Under the pieces are notes generated by a model, which ran no database searches, was not told the origin of the DNA, and saw only the letters and a list, made by a program, of their open reading frames with translations. 37,873 nt of DNA from an uncultured Bacteroidales bacterium (GTDB lineage: Bacteria; Bacteroidota; Bacteroidia; Bacteroidales; Bacteroidaceae). Every line of letters begins with the position of its first letter. The stretch's first letter is position 1. The translations under genes and the position numbers were made by a program. The stretch lies in the NCBI GenBank assembly GCA_902776455.1, contig CACYQI010000019.1, positions 1 through 37,873 on the forward strand, given 5' to 3'. Of this stretch, positions 3,425 to 32,445 are shown one piece after another.

Positions 3425-6400
3425 ATGAATAGGCTTTTCACCATACTGATGCTTGCGTTAGTGATGCAAACCATCAACGCCCAACAGCAAGGGCTTACAT
3501 TCACCAGCCTCGACTGGAACGAGATGCAGATAGACTCTGTGCTGCCCGTCTATACCGAAGTCGTGCCGCTGGAGACCGACTATCGCACACACTCCTACAC
3601 CGTCTCGCTCCTCTACCCCGAATACGAAGCACTCAGCAGCAGGGAGGCAGCAGTGGCAGAACGTTTCGACAGCCTCCTGAGCGAGACAATCGACGTTGAG
3701 ACATTCGTAGGCGTAGAACGCGGAAAGGGACTGCTCGACATTTCCTTCATCCCCGTCCGCCGTTGCGGAGGCCGGTACGAGAAACTCATCAGCGCACAAA
3801 TCGTCATCAATGCCAACCCAAGCCAAAGGCACAGCATGCGCAAAGCAGGAGAAGCTGCAGGCGAGTCACGCTATGCGGCAAACTCCAAGCTGGCAAGCGG
3901 AAAGTGGATAAAAGTGAGCATCCAGGAAGACGGACTCTATCAACTCTCCCGCAACACGCTGAAGAAGATGGGCTTCAGCAATCCCGAAAACATCCATCTC
4001 TACGGCTATGGCGGACACTTGCTGCCCGAACTTATCCGCGAAGGCACACACCACGACGACCTCGTCGAAGTGCCTCTCTACTATAACAGCACTACCGACA
4101 GCTGGATCTTCTGGGGCAACGGCCTTGTCCATTGGACAGAAGACACACGCATATCCAACGTCTTTGCTCGCCAAGCCTGCTACTTCTTGACACAAGAGGA
4201 TAGCCCTTCTGTCATCGAGACCATTGCGTCCCTCTCCTCCGAGCCTTCCAACACCTACACAACAACAAGGGCACACACCCTCTACGAAAAGGACGAGTTC
4301 GCATGGCACCCCATCGGACGGCATCTCTTCGACGGAGAGAACTATGCCAACAACAACTCGCACACCTACAACCTCAACGCCATCGACCCGGCAGGAAGAG
4401 GGAAACTGACCATTGTCTTCACAGGCTCGGAAAACTCCACCAACACGGTAAGCGTCAGCATCAACGGGACTACCAGCGGCGCCTTCAGCATACAGCCGCC
4501 CGGAGACTACATCTTTGCCACAGCCACCACACGCAACTTCGACCTGAGCGGCATAGAAACGCCTGCCGCGCTCAAGGTTAACCTTCGCTCGGAAGCCGGC
4601 AAGAAAGCACGTCTGGACTATCTTGCCTACAGCTACGACCGCAAGCTAAGCACGACGGCAAAGGGATTCGTTGACTTCACATCCGACACCAGAGGCGCCG
4701 CAGCATTCAACATAACAGGACCCAACACAAAGGTCATCCGCACAGGCAGCATCGACGTGAAGGACGCCTTGGTTGAAGGCACACAAGAGGGCGACACGTA
4801 TCGCATCCGAGTAAACAACGGCTTACAGCACTTTGTGGCCTTCAACACAGCCCTCAACTTCCCTGAACCCGAACTCGTTGGAAACGTTGAGAACCAAAAC
4901 CTTCACAGCCTCGACAGCCTCGACATGGTAATCATCATTCCCACCAGCGGCAAGCTTCGTTCCGAGGCACAACGTCTGGCCGATGCCCACATGCAATACG
5001 ACGGAATGCGAATCGGCATCGTACGGGCCGACCAGGTGTACAACGAATTCTCCAGCGGCACACCAGACCCGACGGCTTACCGCCTCTTTATGAAGATGCT
5101 CTACGACAAGGTCAACGACAAAAGCTATGCTCCGAAGTACCTCCTGCTCTTCGGCGACTGCGCTTGGGACAACCGTATGTACTCCTCTACATGGCGCACC
5201 AGCAACCCCGACGACTTCCTTCTCTGCTACGAAAGCGAGAACAGCTTCAGCGACACGAAAAGCTATGTCATGGAAGACTACTTCGGGCTGCTCGACGACG
5301 GCGAGGGATACAACCCCATTCGCGAGAAGAGCGACATCGGCATCGGACGCTTCCCTGTCAGACAGGCAACAGCAGCCAAGATCATGGTGGACAAGGCTAT
5401 TGCCTACATGAGCAACCAGAACGCAGGTCCCTGGAAGAACCTTGTCTATATACTGGGCGATGACGGAGACGAGAACGAACACATGAGGTATGCCAACAAC
5501 GTGGCAGAGAACATCATCTCCAAGTTCCCCGAGATAGAAGTACATAAGATTATGTGGGATGCCTACACACGTGTCAGCACGACGAACAGCAACACCTATC
5601 CCGAGGCAGCCAAGCAGATAAAGAGGCAAATGAACGAAGGTGCGCTGGTGATGAACTACACCGGTCACGCCGCCGCCTACGGCTTCAGCCACGAGTTCGT
5701 GCTGCTGCGAGAAGACTTCGAGACCACCAAAAGCACAAAGCTGCCCTTATGGGTGACTTGTGCATGCGACGTCATGCCTTTCGACTCACATGTCGGCAAC
5801 ATCGGCGAGACAGCGGTGCTCAACCCGACGGGCGGTGCCTTGGCCTTCTACGGCACTACACGTACCGTCTTTGCAAGCCAGAACTACAACATGAACCGCT
5901 ACTTCATGCAGTACCTCTTTGCCAATAATGCCACAACCGGAAAGCGTAACCGCATCGGCGATGCCATTCGAATGGCGAAGAACAGCATCATCAGCGACGG
6001 ACGCGAAGCCGGCTATCTGGAGAACAAGCTCCAGTATGCTTTGCTCGGCGACCCTGCTTTGATAATGGGTAACCCCTTGCAGCACATCGTGGTAGATAAG
6101 ATCAACGACAAGGAAGTCGATGGCTCGGACATTCCCCTCAAGGCAGGCGAGCGTGTCAAGCTCACAGGGCATGTGAAGAAAGCCGACGGCACAACGATGA
6201 CTGACTTCAACGGCATCGTATATACAAGGCTCTTCGACAACAAGGAAACCATCGTTTGCCTCAACAATGCGGGAGCCACAGAGCCGTTCACCTTCACCGA
6301 CCGCAACGCGATGCTCTACGAGTCGCAGGACAGCGTGCGCAACGGCGTCTTCAGCGAAGAGTTTATCATCCCCGTTGACATCAACTTCAGCAATCAGGCC

Positions 6401-7168
6401 GGCCGCCTTGTCTTCTATGCGATAGACGCTGCCAATGGCTTTGAGGCCAACGGTTACAACGAGGACATTCCGCTGGGCGGCATAATCGAGAACACCGACT
6501 TCGACAAGGACGGTCCCGAGATATATGCCTACCTCAACGACGAGGAGTTCCAGAACGGCGGCACAGTCAACGCCACTCCGCTCTTCGTGGCACAACTCAC
6601 CGACGCCAGCGGCATCAGCACCAGCGGCAACGGCATCGGGCACGACCTCTCGCTCTGCATCGACGGAAAGAGCGACCTCACATACAACATCAACGAGTTC
6701 TATACGCATGAGTTCGGCGACTTCACTCGCGGCACAGTTGCCTACAACATTCCGCAACTCGAGAACGGTCCGCACAGACTTACCTTCCGTGCCTGGGACG
6801 TGCTGAACAACACGAACCAGACAAGCCTTGACTTCGTGGTGGACGACGGCATGGCAACCAACATCGTACGCCTCATGGCAAGCCAGAACCCTGCCATAAA
6901 CTACACCAACTTCATGGTAAGCTACGACCTGCCCGGCAGCGCTTGCGACTTTGTCATCGAGGTGTTCGACTTCTCGGGCCGTCGCATATGGATGCACGAG
7001 GACAGCACGTCGGGCGAAGGCGGCATATACACCGTCACTTGGAATCTTACTAACGGAGCTGGAAAGAAAGTAGATACCGGCATCTATCTTTATCGTTGCA
7101 GAATAAGGTGCGGACAGAGCAAATGGACCTCAAAGACACAAAAAATCATGGTGCGGAACAATAAATAA
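3425..7168 (+). CDS. porU: Type IX secretion system sortase PorU (C25 gingipain-like)
   Basis: The 1247-residue protein starts with a signal peptide (MNRLFTILMLALVMQTINAQ). A caspase-like C25 peptidase domain spans about residues 499-875, from MVIIIPTSGKLRSEAQRL to LLGDPALIMG. The dyad is visible as H748 in YTGHAAAYG and C781 in VTCACDVMPFD; both sit where the P. gingivalis PorU residues are expected. The last 100 residues form an FlgD/CTD-like domain (EVFDFSGRRIW, then DTGIYLYRCRI), as in known PorU. At the cell surface PorU removes the C-terminal sorting domain of T9SS cargo and attaches A-LPS. It is followed 25 bases later by porV, the order also seen in P. gingivalis, where the two products form the attachment complex. 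No other T9SS core gene is in the window. Confidence 0.95.
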   Translation: MNRLFTILMLALVMQTINAQQQGLTFTSLDWNEMQIDSVLPVYTEVVPLETDYRTHSYTVSLLYPEYEALSSREAAVAERFDSLLSETIDVETFVGVERGKGLLDISFIPVRRCGGRYEKLISAQIVINANPSQRHSMRKAGEAAGESRYAANSKLASGKWIKVSIQEDGLYQLSRNTLKKMGFSNPENIHLYGYGGHLLPELIREGTHHDDLVEVPLYYNSTTDSWIFWGNGLVHWTEDTRISNVFARQACYFLTQEDSPSVIETIASLSSEPSNTYTTTRAHTLYEKDEFAWHPIGRHLFDGENYANNNSHTYNLNAIDPAGRGKLTIVFTGSENSTNTVSVSINGTTSGAFSIQPPGDYIFATATTRNFDLSGIETPAALKVNLRSEAGKKARLDYLAYSYDRKLSTTAKGFVDFTSDTRGAAAFNITGPNTKVIRTGSIDVKDALVEGTQEGDTYRIRVNNGLQHFVAFNTALNFPEPELVGNVENQNLHSLDSLDMVIIIPTSGKLRSEAQRLADAHMQYDGMRIGIVRADQVYNEFSSGTPDPTAYRLFMKMLYDKVNDKSYAPKYLLLFGDCAWDNRMYSSTWRTSNPDDFLLCYESENSFSDTKSYVMEDYFGLLDDGEGYNPIREKSDIGIGRFPVRQATAAKIMVDKAIAYMSNQNAGPWKNLVYILGDDGDENEHMRYANNVAENIISKFPEIEVHKIMWDAYTRVSTTNSNTYPEAAKQIKRQMNEGALVMNYTGHAAAYGFSHEFVLLREDFETTKSTKLPLWVTCACDVMPFDSHVGNIGETAVLNPTGGALAFYGTTRTVFASQNYNMNRYFMQYLFANNATTGKRNRIGDAIRMAKNSIISDGREAGYLENKLQYALLGDPALIMGNPLQHIVVDKINDKEVDGSDIPLKAGERVKLTGHVKKADGTTMTDFNGIVYTRLFDNKETIVCLNNAGATEPFTFTDRNAMLYESQDSVRNGVFSEEFIIPVDINFSNQAGRLVFYAIDAANGFEANGYNEDIPLGGIIENTDFDKDGPEIYAYLNDEEFQNGGTVNATPLFVAQLTDASGISTSGNGIGHDLSLCIDGKSDLTYNINEFYTHEFGDFTRGTVAYNIPQLENGPHRLTFRAWDVLNNTNQTSLDFVVDDGMATNIVRLMASQNPAINYTNFMVSYDLPGSACDFVIEVFDFSGRRIWMHEDSTSGEGGIYTVTWNLTNGAGKKVDTGIYLYRCRIRCGQSKWTSKTQKIMVRNNK

Positions 7169-7193
7169 GCCCTCTACTCAGTTATTATAGAGT

Positions 7194-8372
7194 ATGAAAG
7201 CACGTAGAATCATCCGAATCATGCTGCTGCTCATCGTATGTGGCAGTGGAGCTGTCCTTGCTCAGGACAAGCAGAATATGTTCAACCCCGTGAACACCAG
7301 TGTGACATCTCTGGCCATTGCCCCCGATGCCCGTGCAGGTTCAATGGGCGACATCGGCGCAGGCACCGAGGCAGACATCTATTCGCAGTACTGGAATCCA
7401 GCCAAATATCCCTTCAACGTAGCACGTGCCGGCGTCGGCATCAGCTATACGCCGTGGTTGCGCAAACTGGTGAACGACATCAACCTTGCTAACCTGACCG
7501 GTTTCTACCGCATAGGCAATTACAGCGCCGTACACGCTTCGTTGCGCTACTTCAGCCTTGGCGACGTCTATCTGGCCGATATGGACGACATGACCATCCG
7601 TCCCTACGAGATGGCTATCGATGCAGGCTACAGCCGCATGCTCAGTGAGACGTTCTCTATGGCCGTCAACCTGCGCTTCATTCTCTCCGACATCAAGTAC
7701 GACTACACCGCCGAGAGTAGTGCAGGCAAGGCTTTTGCTGCCGACATCGCCCTCTATCGCTTGGGCTACTTCATGATGGCCAACCGCGAATGCAGCTTTG
7801 GCTGGGGTGTCAACATCAGCAACATCGGTTCGAAGATTTCCTACGGCGGAAGCGACAACTCCGAGTTCATCCCGACGAACTTGCGTATTGGTTTCAACTT
7901 CACCGTGCCTTTCAACGAGTACAACAAGTTCAGTCTCGGCATGGATATCAACAAGTTGCTTGTCCCCACCTACCCCATGAAGAAGGAGGACGAGGCTGAC
8001 GAGGACTACGAGGAACGCGTGCAGAAGGACTACTACGATGTGTCGTCTATTGCCGGCATCTTCAAGAGCTTCGGCGACGCGCCCAACGGCTTCAAGGAGG
8101 AGATGGAGGAGATTCAGTGGAGCATCGGTGCCGAATACACCTACAACGACCGCTTCATGCTCCGTGCCGGCTATCACCACGAAGCTGCAAACAAGGGTAA
8201 TCGTAAGTACTTCACCGTTGGTGCAGGCTTCCACATGAGCGTCTTCACAGTCGATGCCGCCTATGTCTTCTCTACCGCACAGAGCAATCCTCTCGACCAG
8301 ACCATGCGCTTCTCGCTGGGCTTCGACTTGGACGGCATGCGCGACCTCTTCGGCAAGATGAGACGCAGATAA
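7194..8372 (+). CDS. porV: Type IX secretion system outer membrane protein PorV (LptO)
   Basis: The 392-residue protein begins with a signal peptide ending VLAQ (residue 24). The PorV/PorQ family start follows: NTSVTSLAIAPDARAGSMGD, then EADIYSQYWNPAKY, the FadL-like barrel hallmark of this family. Alternating strands continue to the end. PorV is a 14-strand outer membrane barrel that carries T9SS cargo from the translocon to PorU. An acidic loop (KKEDEADEDYEERVQKD, about residues 262-278) looks like a lineage-specific extracellular or periplasmic loop. The gene follows porU closely and is surely co-transcribed with it. Confidence 0.93.
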   Translation: MKARRIIRIMLLLIVCGSGAVLAQDKQNMFNPVNTSVTSLAIAPDARAGSMGDIGAGTEADIYSQYWNPAKYPFNVARAGVGISYTPWLRKLVNDINLANLTGFYRIGNYSAVHASLRYFSLGDVYLADMDDMTIRPYEMAIDAGYSRMLSETFSMAVNLRFILSDIKYDYTAESSAGKAFAADIALYRLGYFMMANRECSFGWGVNISNIGSKISYGGSDNSEFIPTNLRIGFNFTVPFNEYNKFSLGMDINKLLVPTYPMKKEDEADEDYEERVQKDYYDVSSIAGIFKSFGDAPNGFKEEMEEIQWSIGAEYTYNDRFMLRAGYHHEAANKGNRKYFTVGAGFHMSVFTVDAAYVFSTAQSNPLDQTMRFSLGFDLDGMRDLFGKMRRR

Positions 8373-8500
8373 AGACATTTACTATTTAACTATTTACGAT
8401 TTACGATTTATTTACGATTGAACTATTGAGTTATTTATAGGAAGCAATAACTAAATCACTAAAAAGTCAATAAATAGTAAATCGTAAATCGTGAAATCGT
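8373..8500. repeat. Inverted arrays of 7-bp AAATCGT/ACGATTT repeats
   Basis: The porV-ispF gap holds two facing arrays. ACTATTT/ACGATTT units occupy about 8382-8420, and AAATAGT/AAATCGT units occupy about 8472-8504. Together they can fold into a long AT-rich stem around the loop at 8425-8465. Related units appear at 21608-21672, 27258-27345, 31360-31390 and 32403-32445. Confidence 0.75.
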
Positions 8501-11930: not shown

Positions 11931-12009
11931 TTTCCTAGGATGTCCTAGGAATTTCTAGGATTTCCTAGGCATTTCTAGGATTTCCTAGGATTTCTAGGAT
12001 TTCCTAGGT
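11931..12009. repeat. Tandem 10-bp TTTCCTAGGA array
   Basis: Eight units of 9-10 bases (TTTCCTAGGA, TGTCCTAGGA, ATTTCTAGGA and variants) fill the gap between the S9 peptidase stop and the MFS start. Several units contain the palindrome CCTAGG. This sequence type is not seen elsewhere in the window. The 10-bp period would place units on one face of the helix. Confidence 0.9.
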
Positions 12010-17698: not shown

Positions 17699-18472
17699 AT
17701 GCTCATCAAATCAGCCGAATACCTTATCAGCAGTGCCCGTGTGGACCAATGTCCGCGGGGAGACTTGCCGGAGTTCGCTTTTATAGGGCGAAGCAATGTA
17801 GGCAAGTCCAGCCTCATCAACATGCTGACAGGCAGGGCTGGACTGGCCAAAACGTCTGCCACACCTGGCAAGACGGTGCTGATTAACTACTTCTTAATAA
17901 AGGGGCAAGGAGCAAGGGGCAAGGGGCAAGAGAATACCAACAAAAACCAAAGCAATCCTCCTGCACCTTGCCCCTTGCCCCTTGCTCCCCAAAGCAATCC
18001 TCCTGCACCTTGCCCCTTGCCCCTTGCCCCTAAAAACAATCCTCCTGCCCCTTGCCCCTTGCCCCTCGCCCCTAAAGATGCCTTCTACTTCGTTGACCTC
18101 CCCGGATATGGCTTTGCCAAGCGAGGACAGCGGCAAAGAGACGAACTGCAACGCATGATTTCGGGCTACATCCTTCGTCGCGAACAGATGATGAACCTAT
18201 TTCTTCTTATCGACGCACGCCACGAACCGCAACGAATCGACATGGAGTTCATCCAGTGGCTCGGAGAGAACGGCATACCCTTCAGCATCGTCTTCACCAA
18301 AGCCGACAAACTCTCGAAAGGAAGGCTTGCAGCAAACATCAAGCACTACCTCGACGAACTCTCGAAGCAGTGGGAAAAACTGCCCCCCTACTTCATCACC
18401 AGCAGCGAGACACGCCAAGGTCGCGACGAAGTGCTGGGGTACATCGACGAAATGTTGAAAAGCCTCCTCTAA
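17699..18472 (+). CDS. engB: Ribosome biogenesis GTPase EngB (YsxC/YihA) with a 58-residue repeat insertion
   Basis: The 257-residue protein is about 55 residues longer than usual for EngB. The G motifs are intact: G1 [10 protein letters not shown] near residue 30, G2 in TSATPGKT, G3 DLPGYG at residues 133-138, G4 TKAD and G5 SSETRQG. EngB is a cytoplasmic GTPase for 50S assembly. Residues about 69-126 are an insertion in the hairpin between the strand VLINYFLIK and the strand AFYFVDLPG. It begins with a GQGARGKGQ stretch and continues with three exact-length 14-residue repeats ([12 protein letters not shown] plus two). The coding frame is preserved across all of it. The insertion is Pro/Cys-rich and probably an exposed loop. 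Because the gene is normally essential, the insertion must be tolerated or the copy is replaced elsewhere. Confidence 0.93.
17901..18078 (+). repeat. 42-bp in-frame minisatellite with inverted GGGGCAAG arm inside engB
   Basis: Units start at 17953, 17995 and 18037. Each is 42 bases and reads CAATCCTCCTGCACCTTGCC, then further CCCTTGCC blocks. The preceding GGGGCAAGGAGCAAGGGGC (17902-17930) is the reverse complement of the CCTTGCCCC part, so the insert can fold into a long hairpin. Confidence 0.92.
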
Positions 18473-28334: not shown

Positions 28335-28787
28335 ATGAAAAGGATACTCTTTATTGCCATTGCAGTCTTTTCTATGGTCAATGGTAAATGGTCAACGGCT
28401 TCAGCACAGACGCAGAAACAGAAAGTGAATGTCAGCGAGGTTCAAGCAGTCGCTACAACAAAAGCAGAGAACTACGCAGAAATCACATTCGATACGCTTC
28501 GCCACGACTTCGGCAAGTTCTCGAAGAACGAACCGCTGGTGCGTTGCGCATTCCCCTTCAAGAACACCGGAACGGCTCCGCTCATCATCCATCAAGCCTT
28601 TGCCAGCTGCGGATGCACCGTGCCCACCTACACCAAAGAACCCATCAAGCCGGGCGAAAAGGGCGTCATCGACGTCACCTATGACGGCACAGACAAGTTC
28701 CCCGGCCACTTCATGAAGACCATCACCATCCGCTCCAATGCAGTCAACGAGGTCGTGCGGCTCACCATCGAAGGAACTATGGAGTGA
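28335..28787 (+). CDS. DUF1573 secreted/periplasmic protein
   Basis: The 150-residue protein has a signal peptide whose end (MVNGKWSTASAQ) is encoded by ATGGTCAATGGTAAATGGTC repeats. The DUF1573 immunoglobulin-like domain follows: EITFDTLRHDFGKF, then VRCAFPFKNTGTAPLIIHQAFASCGCTVPTYTKEPIKPGEKG, the family hallmark with paired Cys, ending in TIRSNAVNEVVRLTIEG. DUF1573 is an ASPM-SPD-2-Hydin-like fold of unknown function, common in Bacteroidetes envelopes. It stands ahead of the GH31 gene on the same strand but is separated by 211 bases of repeats, so co-transcription is uncertain. Confidence 0.88.
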   Translation: MKRILFIAIAVFSMVNGKWSTASAQTQKQKVNVSEVQAVATTKAENYAEITFDTLRHDFGKFSKNEPLVRCAFPFKNTGTAPLIIHQAFASCGCTVPTYTKEPIKPGEKGVIDVTYDGTDKFPGHFMKTITIRSNAVNEVVRLTIEGTME

Positions 28788-28794
28788 AACAAAG

Positions 28795-28975
28795 TTGAAA
28801 ATTGAAAATTGAAAATTGAAAAGAGGTTAGAGGTAAGAGGTAAGAGGTAAGAGGACACCTTTGCCCCCTCAGCATCCCAAACTATCCTCTAACCACTAAC
28901 CACTAACCACAAGAAAAAAGTTAGGGCGGTAGCAAATTCTTCACTCTTCACTCTTCACTCTTCACTTCGCCGAAG
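28795..28975. repeat. Mixed 7-bp arrays between the DUF1573 and GH31 genes
   Basis: GAAAATT units (28796-28820), GAGGTAA units (28822-28851), ACCACTA units (28892-28910) and CTTCACT units (28940-28967) follow each other. Each is a separate 7-bp tandem run. Confidence 0.85.
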
Positions 28976-28998
28976 GCGACATTCTATATGACTTGACC

Positions 28999-31503
28999 AT
29001 GGACATCGCGAAACTCTTCTCCCTCCTCCTTCTCTTCCTCTTTGTCGGCAGACTGCCTGCCAGCGCAGAAGAGGATTGGAACCCCTTGGCACAAGAAGAA
29101 GCCATCGTGACAAGTGGCAACGCCCGCTTCACTATCCTTACGCCCCGACTCATCCGCATACAGTACAGCACAGCCGATGCCTTCGAGGACCGCGCCACCT
29201 TTGCTGTCGTCAACCGTCTGCTCCCCGTCCCAGCTTTCACCTGCAACGAAGAGGACGGCTACCTCGTCATTCGCACCGACTCGCTGACCCTGCGCTACAA
29301 GATAGGGGCGAGAATCCTCAAGCAAGCCAAGAACAGCAACGTGCTGGGCATCACCTTCCAGATGAACGGCCGACAGATACTTTGGTACCCCGGCAAGGAC
29401 GACGCCCTCAACCTGCTTGGCACTCAGCGCACACTCGACGGCAACATCGGCGACACCCATCGCGTCTCCCTCGAAAAAGGACTCCTTTCGCGCGACGGCT
29501 GGGCCATCCTCGACGAGTCGCCGGCCACTCAGCGGGGCGACGGCAGCCGCAGCTTCCCCTTCGAAGGAAACGTCGATGGCATTCCTTGGATAGGGAAACC
29601 CCTCGACGCCAACGCAATCGACTGGTACTTCTTCGGCTACGGCCACCACTACGAGGACGCGCTCGGCGACTACGTCCGCATAGCCGGACGGCAACCCCTG
29701 CCGCCTAAATACATGTTCGGCTATTGGTACAGCAAGTATCAAGCCTACTCGCAAAGCGACGTCCAGCAACTCATCCGCGACATGGAGAACCGGAACATCC
29801 CCCATGACGTGCTGATGATAGATTGCGATTGGCATCAGAACTCATGGACCGGCTGGACGTGGAACAAATCGCTCTTTCCCAATCCCGCCACCCTTCTCGG
29901 CTGGATGCACACCCACCACACCAAGTCCGCCCTCAACCTCCATCCCGCCGACGGCATCGGCTCCAGCGACGACAACTTCGCCAAGATACGCAACGACATG
30001 GGCCTCGACGCAAGCGTCACCACGGTGCCGTGGCAACTGGAGGACTCCACTTTCTATCGCACCTTCTTCAAGAACATCATGCGCGTCCGCGAAAGGCAGG
30101 GCGTCGATTTCTGGTGGCTCGACTGGCAGCAAGACCTCACAAGCAAATACATCCCGGGCCTTGGGCAGACATTCTGGCTCAACCATGTCTTCTATAACGA
30201 CATGCGGCTCCACCGCACCGACCGCCGTCCCGTCATCTTCCATCGCTGGGGAGGCATGGGAAGCCACCGCTACCCCATCGGCTTCTCCGGCGACACCTTT
30301 GCAACATACGGCACACTTCAGTTCGAAAGCTACGTCACTGCCACGGCTGCTAACGTCTGCTTCGGCTATTGGGGGCACGACGGTGGAGGCTACCTCCAAC
30401 CCAACAACATCAGCACCGACCCCGAACTCGTGCTCCGATGGATGCAGTTCTGCGTCTTCCAACCCATCTTCCGCACACACGGCTCAAGCCAAAGCGGTTG
30501 CGAGCGACGCATCTGGAAGTTCAGCAACTTCGACCTCCAGAACGAAGCCTTCCAACTCCGCTACACCCTTATACCTTATATATATACAGCAGCCCGCTGC
30601 GCCTACGACACCGGCGTCTCCATCTGCCGACCGCTCTACTACGAATGGCCCGAAGAAAACAAAGCCTACTCCGTAGAAGACGAATACCTCTTCGGCGACG
30701 ACATCCTCGTCTCGCCCATCTCCACCCCTTCCCGCAGCAACGGCACAAGCCAACGCTCCACATGGTTGCCCAAAGGCTATTGGTACGACATCTGCCGCTC
30801 CCGCATGCTCAGCGGCGGACGCACCATCACCGACGAATACGGCTTAGACGAGATACCCTTCTTCCTTCGCCTCGGCAGCATCATTCCCTGCAACCCTCCC
30901 CTCTCGCACATGAAGGAAGAACCCGCCTCCCTCGTCCTTTGGGTCATACCCGGAGACGATGGCGAAGGCACCCTCTACGAAGACCAGGGCGACAGCGAAG
31001 CCTACAAAGACGGCGAGTACGCCACCACCCGCTTCTCCCAAAGCCATACCTCCTCTGGCACCACACTCACCATCCATCCCCGCCAAGGCAGCTACGAAGG
31101 CATGCTCAGCGAGCGCGCATGGCAAGTCGTGTTCTTTGCGGCCGAAGAGCCGGATGTCGTCAGCATCAACGGCGAAAGAACCCACGATTGGATTTACGAC
31201 GGACAGCTCCACCGCCTCACCGTCAACGTCCCCTCGCATCCCTGCACCGAGACCATCATCGTCAACTACAGAGACAAAGAGACAGGAATCAGGGGAATTG
31301 AAAGTGGAAAATGGAAAATTGAAAATGAAGAAGGAATTCAAAATGAAGGTCAAATCGTAAATAGTAAATCGTCAAATAGTAAATGTTTTGATTTAAGCGG
31401 CCGCGAAATGGTCAATGGTCAATGGTCAATGGTCAATGGTCAAATGCCAAAGGGCTTTTACATAGTCGGTAGCAAGAAAATCATAATCCCCTACAAGCCA
31501 TGA
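28999..31503 (+). CDS. Glycoside hydrolase family 31 enzyme with type IX C-terminal sorting tail
   Basis: From ATG 28999 (a TTG two codons earlier is less likely) the protein has 834 residues and a signal peptide (MDIAKLFSLLLLFLFVGRLPASA). The GH31 barrel shows KYMFGYWYSKYQAYS, nucleophile D375 in WWLDWQQD, acid/base D432 in GFSGDTF, and GYWGHDGGGY. RPLYYEWPEENKAYSVEDEYLFGDDILVSPI follows, then a DUF5110-like beta domain. It probably removes alpha-linked glucose or xylose. The last 40 residues are a T9SS sorting motif (CFDLSGRE...PKGFYIVGSKKIII), so it is a likely PorU/PorV client. Residues about 766-796 and 804-815 are repeat-encoded, and a 7-bp array interrupts the sorting motif itself. The TGA overlaps the next ATG (ATGA). 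Confidence 0.9.
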   Translation: MDIAKLFSLLLLFLFVGRLPASAEEDWNPLAQEEAIVTSGNARFTILTPRLIRIQYSTADAFEDRATFAVVNRLLPVPAFTCNEEDGYLVIRTDSLTLRYKIGARILKQAKNSNVLGITFQMNGRQILWYPGKDDALNLLGTQRTLDGNIGDTHRVSLEKGLLSRDGWAILDESPATQRGDGSRSFPFEGNVDGIPWIGKPLDANAIDWYFFGYGHHYEDALGDYVRIAGRQPLPPKYMFGYWYSKYQAYSQSDVQQLIRDMENRNIPHDVLMIDCDWHQNSWTGWTWNKSLFPNPATLLGWMHTHHTKSALNLHPADGIGSSDDNFAKIRNDMGLDASVTTVPWQLEDSTFYRTFFKNIMRVRERQGVDFWWLDWQQDLTSKYIPGLGQTFWLNHVFYNDMRLHRTDRRPVIFHRWGGMGSHRYPIGFSGDTFATYGTLQFESYVTATAANVCFGYWGHDGGGYLQPNNISTDPELVLRWMQFCVFQPIFRTHGSSQSGCERRIWKFSNFDLQNEAFQLRYTLIPYIYTAARCAYDTGVSICRPLYYEWPEENKAYSVEDEYLFGDDILVSPISTPSRSNGTSQRSTWLPKGYWYDICRSRMLSGGRTITDEYGLDEIPFFLRLGSIIPCNPPLSHMKEEPASLVLWVIPGDDGEGTLYEDQGDSEAYKDGEYATTRFSQSHTSSGTTLTIHPRQGSYEGMLSERAWQVVFFAAEEPDVVSINGERTHDWIYDGQLHRLTVNVPSHPCTETIIVNYRDKETGIRGIESGKWKIENEEGIQNEGQIVNSKSSNSKCFDLSGREMVNGQWSMVNGQMPKGFYIVGSKKIIIPYKP
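31296..31390. repeat. Heptamer-type repeats coding for the GH31 linker
   Basis: GAAAGTGGAAAATGGAAAAT and AATCGTAAATAGTAAATCGT code for a Lys/Glu/Asn/Ser-rich linker between the catalytic part and the sorting tail. The first is the approximate reverse complement of 31533-31580 in the next gene. Confidence 0.8.
31408..31442 (+). repeat. ATGGTCA x5 heptamer array within the sorting signal
   Basis: Five exact ATGGTCA units (35 bases) code for MVNGQWSMVNGQ between DLSGRE and MPKGFYIVG. Loss or gain of one unit would shift the frame before the end of the sorting tail. Confidence 0.95.
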
Positions 31504-32384
31504 AACGCCTCCTGCTCATACTTCTTTTCACCTTTCCATTTTCAACTTTCAACTTTCAGCTTTCCACTTTCAACTTTCTCTATGCTCAGGACATGTCGCG
31601 CCTCTGGGCAGTAGGCACAGCCGTGCCCGGTGGCATACAGGAACTGACACCCTTCCCCAACAAGCAGTTCAAATACACCGGCCGCCTCATCGAAGGCGGG
31701 TCGCTCACCTTCCGCAACATCGAAGCAGGTAAAGGCACCGGCTTGCGCTACATCAAACCCACCTACGAAGATGCCTATGCCGTGACAAACCCCATGCCCT
31801 TCACCCTCGCCCTCGACTCAGCCTCCAGCACATGGATCGTCCCCCTCACCGAAGACGTCTATCGCATCACCATCGACCTCAGCGCCAAGAAGCTCACCGG
31901 CGAACTCTTCCGTCCCTGGAACGAACTCTTCATCGTTGGTGGAGCCACCGAATGCGGATGGGTGACATACACCTTCCTGCCCTTCACCCGCGACGAAGAC
32001 GAGGTCTGCGCTTGGGACTGGACAGGCCTTCTGCGCGAGCGGCAAGAGTATGGCGAACCACGCCGCTTCAAGTTCCTCGGACAGAACGCCTGGGAGCCGA
32101 AAGCCCTCCATCCCTTCTCGCAGGACGAAGACGTCCTCTCCAGCACCCAACTGCTCACGGGCGGCAGCGGCGACAACAAATGGAGCATACGCGAGGAAGG
32201 CTACTACCACATCCGCGTCGATGTCTTCCGCGAGACAGTCCAAGCCGAATACCTCGGCCCCGACCCACCCATGTTAAATGAAGAATTAAGAATGAATTTC
32301 GCCTGCGGCGTCGCCTCCGGTGAAGTGAAAAGGAGCCTCTCCCCAGCCCTCTCCCGCGGGAGAGGGAGAAGTCTCTCCCTTTAG
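31500..32384 (+). CDS. SusE/SusF-like outer surface glycan-binding protein
   Basis: The 294-residue protein begins with a signal peptide (LLLILLFTFPFSTFNFQLST and on to YAQ) whose hydrophobic core is encoded by CTTTCAA-type repeats. Two SusF-like modules follow. One starts at SRLWAVGTAVPGGIQELTPF and the other at NELFIVGGATECGWVTYTFLPF; each ends in a YRITIDLSAKKL / YHIRVDVFRETV strand, the pattern of SusE/SusF starch-binding domains. It probably holds alpha-glucan at the surface for the upstream GH31 enzyme, to which it is coupled by an ATGA overlap. Residues 259-294 after LGPDPP are encoded by heptamer and family A repeats, and the stop TAG lies in the repeat, so the natural C-terminus was probably near residue 258. 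Confidence 0.8.
   Translation: MKRLLLILLFTFPFSTFNFQLSTFNFLYAQDMSRLWAVGTAVPGGIQELTPFPNKQFKYTGRLIEGGSLTFRNIEAGKGTGLRYIKPTYEDAYAVTNPMPFTLALDSASSTWIVPLTEDVYRITIDLSAKKLTGELFRPWNELFIVGGATECGWVTYTFLPFTRDEDEVCAWDWTGLLRERQEYGEPRRFKFLGQNAWEPKALHPFSQDEDVLSSTQLLTGGSGDNKWSIREEGYYHIRVDVFRETVQAEYLGPDPPMLNEELRMNFACGVASGEVKRSLSPALSRGRGRSLSL
31529..31582. repeat. CTTTCAA-type repeats coding for a signal peptide core
   Basis: TTTTCAACTTTCAACTTTCA and further units occupy codons about 11-27 of the SusF-like gene and read FPFSTFNFQLSTFNF. Confidence 0.88.
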
Positions 32385-32445
32385 GGGGAGATTTAGAGGA
32401 GGCTCTAAATAATACATAAATAGTAAATAGTAAATCGTAAATTAA
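32274..32445. repeat. Heptamer, family A and AAATAGT repeats at the 3' end of the SusF-like gene
   Basis: GAAGAATTAAGAATGAA (32280-32296), a CCCTCTCCCGCGGGAGAGGG palindrome (32346-32365), TCTCCCTTTAGGGGGAGA (32373-32390) and AAATAGTAAATAGTAAATCG (32412-32431) follow in order. The first three lie in or across the end of the coding sequence. Confidence 0.85.

Follow-up and report, generated by a model that had tools for sequence, protein, structure and literature searches.

A heptanucleotide array in the C-terminal tail of a Bacteroidales GH31 glycoside hydrolase as one of many period-7 repeats in the genome

Does a short heptamer array inside the C-terminal tail of a glycoside hydrolase serve as a switch of its secretion, or is it one sample of a broader repeat process? 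The question comes from a preliminary description, made from the sequence alone, of a locus in an uncultured Bacteroidales bacterium (assembly GCA_902776455.1, contig CACYQI010000019.1); the whole stretch of DNA analysed here, 37,873 nucleotides, is referred to as the window, and its relevant features are collected in Table 1. The description noticed five exact ATGGTCA units between DLSGRE and PKGFYIVG, took the tail for a sorting signal of the type IX secretion system (T9SS) and proposed that slippage by one unit turns the export of the GH31 enzyme on and off. The array itself is confirmed by TRF and by the sequence, and the GH31 ORF ends with ...CFDLSGRE, MVNGQWSMVNGQ and MPKGFYIVGSKKIIIPYKP before the stop codon. 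The corresponding TRF row (31407-31443, AATGGTC x5.3, 100% matches) has the score of 74, the highest among the 32 period-7 rows of the 70 TRF rows in the window. The reported overlap of the SusF-like start codon (31500) with the GH31 TGA (31501-31503) is likewise correct.

Table 1. Repeats and genes of the window that are discussed in the text.
Feature	Position	Strand	Evidence
PorU sortase and PorV	3425..8372	+	NF033707 and NF033710 over cutoff
Inverted pair of ATTTACG/AAATCGT arrays	8385..8497	.	Fold z -5.4
GCAAGGG-armed element and 42-base tandem copies, in frame in YihA/YsxC (EngB)	17899..18077	+	Gene 17699-18472
Dispersed element, GGTTAGA arms inverted around core GAGGATAGTTTGGGATGCTGAGGGGGCAAAGGTGTCCTC	28822..28912	-	Aligned with 9 other copies; DNA fold z -3.3
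GH31 glycoside hydrolase with C-terminal tail	28993..31503	+	PF01055 (1e-52), PF21365, PF17137; ORF of 836 aa
Linker from enzyme body to tail, mostly degenerate heptamers (AATGGAA, AAATAGT/AAATCGT words)	31296..31386	+	TRF rows 31296-31327 and 31352-31384
Short tail FDLSGR...PKGFYIVGSKKIIIPYKP, similar to motifs B, D and E of the T9SS type A CTD	31387..31503	+	Comparisons; motif letters are our assignment
Five exact ATGGTCA units coding MVNGQWSMVNGQ, with FDLSGR and PKGFYI on either side	31408..31442	+	TRF and sequence
SusF/SusE-like ORF, ATG overlapping the GH31 stop, without the tail of its relatives	31500..32384	+	PF16411
Heptamers (TTTCAAC words) coding the N-terminal hydrophobic stretch of the SusF-like protein	31526..31578	+	TRF
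Heptamers (AATGAAG, 32277-32296) and GC-rich palindromic repeat (32328-32404) at the SusF-like C-terminus	32277..32404	+	TRF; C-termini compared

The frame arithmetic of the preliminary description holds in silico: gain or loss of a single unit shifts the frame and destroys the tail while sparing the enzyme body. With changes of 1, 2, 4 or 5 units in either direction, the protein stops at 31465 or 31472 and the second half of the tail is gone, whereas loss or gain of three units retains the tail (829 or 843 aa, respectively). The array shares several features with phase-variable simple sequence repeats, namely a unit that is not a multiple of three, a location within an ORF and changes that truncate the product. 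Because of the same two stops, slippage would not join GH31 to the SusF-like protein. In the AlphaFold2 model of the GH31 protein (mean pLDDT 68, pTM 0.71), the tail forms strands at residues 798-800, 821-825 and 828-832, and the array residues (807-818) are located between the first and the second of these with pLDDT <50. The linker residues 764-796 also show pLDDT <50, as do several stretches of the enzyme body, so such values are not specific to the loop.

Two components of type IX export are encoded in the window, as had been stated: PorU (3425-7168) and PorV (7194-8372) are recognized with 1007 and 502 bits, respectively, and the presence of T9SS machinery is assigned through these two proteins. 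The GH31 tail shares with the T9SS type A CTD (TIGR04183/PF18962) a common order of elements, the DLSGR strand followed by the PKGxYI...K end, but comprises only about 38 residues and does not match this model; in our reading, the heptamers occupy the position of the degenerate motif C. According to a review (PMC10202324), motif C of the type A CTD is degenerate, GFP is exported when it carries no more of the HBP35 CTD than the last 22 residues, and efficient secretion needs the last 13, in agreement with the earlier claim that T9SS cargo depends on this tail. Since motif C is degenerate and the end of the CTD is needed, the array seems to be placed at the least constrained sequence, and a shift would remove the most needed part. 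By our motif assignment, the part lost upon a frame shift corresponds to motifs D and E of the type A sorting domain.

The identification of the GH31 tail as a type IX sorting signal rests on the scores of orthologous tails and on a comparison of profiles. Among the NCBIfam models, no T9SS family, TIGR04183 included, matches the GH31 protein or its tail at E<=1, and no NCBIfam model matches the L036 tail at this level; the same genome has 7 TIGR04183 matches, 6 of which exceed the cutoff. The tails of three orthologs pass the TIGR04183 cutoff of 23 bits (L066, 28.3; L068, 33.4; L083, 32.8), and the L094 tail, with a repeat-like slot between its two halves, reaches 21.3 bits. By hhalign, a profile from the 13 short tails matches one from the 7 long CTDs at 94.3% with E 1e-7 over 29 columns, both profiles being shallow, which supports the homology of the short tail to accepted CTDs; the segment beyond GxYI was compared by eye only. 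It is quite improbable that the tail is no export signal at all and that the array is a neutral decoration of a decaying C-terminus. Such decay would fit the missing NCBIfam matches of the GH31 and L036 tails and a SusF-like neighbour without its tail, but 13 short-tail species have retained both halves of the tail along with the frame, the profile match links these tails to CTDs from relatives (the three examined with TIGR04183 all pass), and PorU and PorV are present. Tails with the GIYIxNGKK pattern occur in 13 of the 247 genomes in a sample of the order, and all 13 encode PorU; this says little (P 0.34) because only 19 genomes in the sample are without PorU. In the genome analysed here, the exact GIYIxNGKK pattern, from which the GH31 tail deviates, forms the downstream half of 14 other tails. 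Each of these continues the frame of an upstream half of the Y/F-x3-G type; VNGK-type wording is present in 5 of the 14 (by eye), and a slot run of at least 2.2 copies in 2 of the 14. One additional tail was found via its array (L029, NLSGQQMVNGKSLNSKLPWGIYIK).

Orthologs were searched in 101 genomes of the genus, and 80 of 586 loci were kept; the closest named loci belong to Bacteroidales MAGs from rumen, reticulum, omasum and colon samples, which suggests that the bacterium itself lives in a ruminant gut. Among the genomes fetched, 20, including that of the window, encode a GH31 ortholog with at least 66% identity, 13 of these with the short tail and 7 with a long CTD. All tail and slot comparisons are between species, with one genome each. 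The tail is in frame in all 20 genomes, and no off state was seen; most of these genomes lack a long tract, and the scan for short tails required both halves in one frame, so that "in frame" holds partly by construction, although none of the 13 loci failed. Among the 13 short-tail species, the slot comprises 16 (here), 8, 29, 27, 14, 9, 9, 7, 9, 9, 8, 9 and 7 residues, filled in the relatives with other heptamers or with none, and in frame wherever seen. The commonest length, 9 residues, is found in 5 of the 13 species, the window not among them, and the slot of 16 residues exceeds it by 21 bases, exactly three heptamers. The nearest relative (L086; 90% identity over the longest segment, 85% and 59% over others) has a slot of 8 residues that reads FDLSGRQMINGKWSGIYIQNGKKIIIPYKP; the window slot is 24 bases longer, which is not a multiple of seven. 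Two ortholog bodies are irregular: that of L086 (3001-5131, RUG11599) changes frame, reflecting an assembly error or decay, and that of L048 is in two pieces about 2.9 kb apart (G052:C7:1737-3488 and 6359-7027), as if interrupted by an insertion.

Period 7 marks the slot in the relatives as well. Across the 13 species, self-match at this period is 0.49 in the slot, 0.39 in the linker and 0.47 in the signal-peptide stretch of the SusF-like gene, compared to 0.27 in the GH31 body and to maxima of 0.33, 0.35 and 0.34 in 500 shuffles of the three regions, respectively. The values change little, to 0.45, 0.38 and 0.45, when the window row is left out; in the linker, periods 6 and 7 give equal values (0.39). 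The heptamer words in all three regions differ between species.

The array is indeed one of very many period-7 arrays and is not special to this tail. In the genome of the window (3.39 Mb in 94 contigs, 87% complete), three tandem ATGGTCA units with at most one mismatch have 110 overlapping matches (59 forward and 51 reverse), of which a single array can yield several, the GH31 array alone accounting for three exact ones; the reversed three-unit pattern has none in the same 3.39 Mb. Sampling the beginnings of 20 contigs (400,000 bases in all) revealed 74 arrays with period 7 and 2.5 or more copies; one dinucleotide-Markov shuffle had 0. In this sample, 0-8 arrays are seen for each of the periods 5, 6 and 8-15, period 4 yields 92 against 77 shuffled, and period 3 yields 855 against 313, as predicted for coding DNA. 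Degenerate period-7 segments number 216 in the sample plus window (437,873 bases) and 13 after these bases were shuffled once. The 93 arrays of at least 2.5 copies in these 437,873 bases are located mostly between ORFs (65); another 15 are inside ORFs, 8 close to a C-terminus and 5 close to an N-terminus, so that ORFs, which span 83.6% of the bases, contain 28 of the 93; the placement is by a crude caller, and some of the ORFs are surely spurious. Stretches from 20 other genomes of the genus (383,388 bases) contain 19 period-7 arrays, with none in 11 of the 20. The lineage is thus rich in such arrays, with 93 here compared to 19 there (rate test, P 2e-11).

The 218 arrays of at least two copies use 72 words, among which AATTATG (19), AAAATTG (16), AAGAGTG (13) and AAATGGT (11) are prominent. 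A one-mismatch neighbour is found for 29 of the 31 recurrent words, compared to a mean of 19 (12-28) in 50 random sets, and each of the 12 commonest words forms more arrays than the average word of the same composition. The arrays are clustered, with 92 of 197 gaps being at most 200 bases where about 19 are expected. Flank-to-flank BLAST of the arrays (480 matches) was not used, degenerate heptamers in the flanks being unmasked. Taken as tandem 7-mers at many sites with an intergenic bias, the arrays conform to the known bacterial heptanucleotide repeats.

This genome-wide distribution bears directly on the proposed switch. We consider it improbable that the array is a phase-variable contingency locus in which gain or loss of a unit by slippage would turn the tail, and with it the export of GH31, on and off, and the switch of the preliminary description is unsupported. 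The unit length, the exactness of the array and the deletion of the tail end by changes of one or two units with the enzyme body spared are all compatible with phase variation, and heptamers that could switch a surface protein have been discussed for Haemophilus influenzae. There, as described in PMC2651432, heptanucleotide tracts lie in the hmw1A/hmw2A promoters, with AATTTTG x14 in the hmw1A ORF of PittAA, and one tract of only 1-7 units is discussed among the possibly phase-variable ones. However, most of those tracts have 13-38 units and come with strain data, whereas here five units are seen in one genome. Heptamers also occur throughout the genome, mostly between ORFs, and the slots of relatives are in frame with other heptamers or none; the in-frame tails of the 20 orthologs argue weakly in the same direction, most of them being without a long tract. 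A reversible switch is possible, if improbable.

Some of the arrays form the arms of hairpins. Within 250 bases of each other, 153 pairs of arrays were counted, 39 inverted and 51 direct, compared to 8.4 and 6.9, respectively, for random pairs; one cluster can yield several pairs, and direct pairs may be fragments of one degenerate array. With a stricter script, the sample yielded 23 elements with inverted arms, and L001 a further one. The alignment of cores comprises ten GGTTAGA-armed copies (nine from the script, and 28822-28912 added by hand) and five GCAAGGG-armed ones; 11 of the 15 cores start with GAGGAT and 10 end with GTATTCTC, the copy at L011:16589 being an outlier. The 28822-28912 element has at least 25 matches in its own genome (14 of 76 candidates scored); the 22 matches listed represent 14 sites, itself included. 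Matches were found in 23 of 61 genomes, including its own, although many of these cover only the arms. As in MITE-like elements, inverted arms surround a core in 28822-28912 and in 17899-17990. The latter (DNA fold z -6.1) is part of an in-frame insert of about 60 residues in the YihA/YsxC GTPase, which is recognized by TIGR03598 (197.5 bits, cutoff 124.45). The gene was found in 59 relatives and the slot was read in 16, among which 11 lack an insert and 5 (L187, L193, L197, L199 and L201) have other inserts, that of L199 sharing KGQENT with the one in the window. A possible mover would be a RAYT-type transposase (PF01797), with three matches in the genome, two of them barely over the cutoff of 23 (25.9 and 24.1).

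Upstream of GH31, four heptamer arrays (AAAATTG, AAGAGGT, ACTAACC and TCTTCAC, 28788-28992), including the 28822-28912 element, separate this gene from a DUF1573 gene. Because the spacer from the DUF1573 stop to the start of the GH31 body is 289 bases here and 46-119 bases in seven relatives (12 were tried; L064 and L066-L069 gave no length), the cluster seems to have been added in this lineage. The DUF1573 protein itself has ATGGTAA heptamers (28374-28392) coding its signal-peptide stretch (FSMVNGKWSTASAQ).

An alternative to growth in place would be that the GH31 array was brought in, either by a copied tail or by a mobile palindromic element with heptamer arms. We regard this as unlikely. 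Heptamer-armed hairpins with related cores are dispersed here, one of them in frame in YihA/YsxC, the L061 slot contains a GC palindrome flanked by heptamers, and tails with MVNGK, a wording that may have spread with duplicated tails, recur in other genes. In contrast, neither an inverted arm nor an element core was seen by eye beside the GH31 array, its DNA shows no fold (z +1.43), which rules out a hairpin role, and both of its flanks are tail sequence common to the relatives.

The array is probably a simple sequence repeat that expanded locally in a permissive loop, one of the period-7 repeats spread over the whole genome. In the ancestor, the short tail would probably already have contained about two AAATGG(T/C) units (MVNGK or similar) between the DLSGR and GIYI strands; growth of the tract in this lineage, with three exact units (21 bases) as the simplest case, would have lengthened the loop by seven residues with the frame kept. 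That the words are shared, that the outcome is in frame and that the array takes a loop position in the model are observations; that the tract grew by replication slippage, from which ancestral state and in how many steps, we infer. The step of three units depends on 9 residues as the starting length because the difference from L086 is 24 bases; as the nearest relative does not fit whole units, our confidence in loop growth is slightly lowered and that in the rivals slightly raised. The five perfect units may reflect recent, even continuing, slippage. Selection on the tail, presumably for T9SS export or anchoring given its homology, would purge out-of-frame changes, and the visible result would for this reason be evolution of loop length rather than reversible switching.

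Dispersed tandem 7-mers, mostly intergenic and sometimes within ORFs, have been described before. The GGGAATC repeats of Xanthomonas and GGGGA(C/T)T repeats of Nostoc (PMC4692102), as well as TAACTGA repeats of Beggiatoaceae, with five Bacteroidetes also reported (PMC4679880), share these features with the arrays analysed here, and their variable copy number is a further likeness. They differ from the present repeats, which use many related words rather than one, often form inverted arms around a core and recur in signal-peptide stretches, linkers and tail loops. The insert in YihA/YsxC resembles the Rickettsia palindromic elements (Ogata 2000, 2002), which are in-frame palindromic repeats in protein-coding genes according to PMC10969869; those elements are about 150 bp long with a conserved peptide, whereas the elements here are heptamer-armed, and the GH31 array is not among them. 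In the open-licence literature, nothing was found on intergenic heptamer tandem repeats in Prevotella, on phase variation of type IX secretion by tandem repeat or on miniature inverted-repeat elements with tandem repeats in Bacteroidales, an absence that carries little weight.

The SusF-like neighbour is a concrete example of a tail that is missing at a repeat-filled end. Its name is tentative (PF16411, 20 bits, under the cutoff of 27.5), and its N-terminal hydrophobic stretch was judged by eye to be a signal peptide. All 17 relatives with a readable end, L063 being cut by a contig end and not counted, carry either a short or a long tail; the copy in the window lacks it and ends with ...LNEELRMNFACGVASGEVKRSLSPALSRGRGRSLSL at the stop codon, coded by heptamers and the GC palindrome. 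At this end, judging from the compared C-termini, repeats and the absent tail coincide as a difference between species. The palindrome (32328-32404) has at least 50 matches in its own genome, itself included (40 of 243 candidates scored), and does not fold better than shuffles (z -0.91).

Heptamers are thus found as hairpin arms, in frame in a conserved GTPase, in signal-peptide stretches and in secretion-like tails, and what seems a single-locus "switch" can be one sample of a genome-wide repeat process. We tentatively suggest, as a rather doubtful generalization, that in this genus heptamer arrays and heptamer-armed hairpins are a continuing source of in-frame coding change in export modules, by which signal peptides, linkers and T9SS-like tail loops would grow, swap words or vanish; that export modules are targeted by their tolerance is an equally speculative part of this proposal. 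If true, the surface display of enzymes would be retuned between species and perhaps within species. The broad pattern lends itself to studies of how selfish DNA, or DNA made by slippage, turns into protein, and of whether export signals are gained and lost in this way. Tandem repetition in the window extends to another period: an array of period 10/20 (TTTCCTAGGA) is located at 11931-12008 between two minus-strand ORFs.
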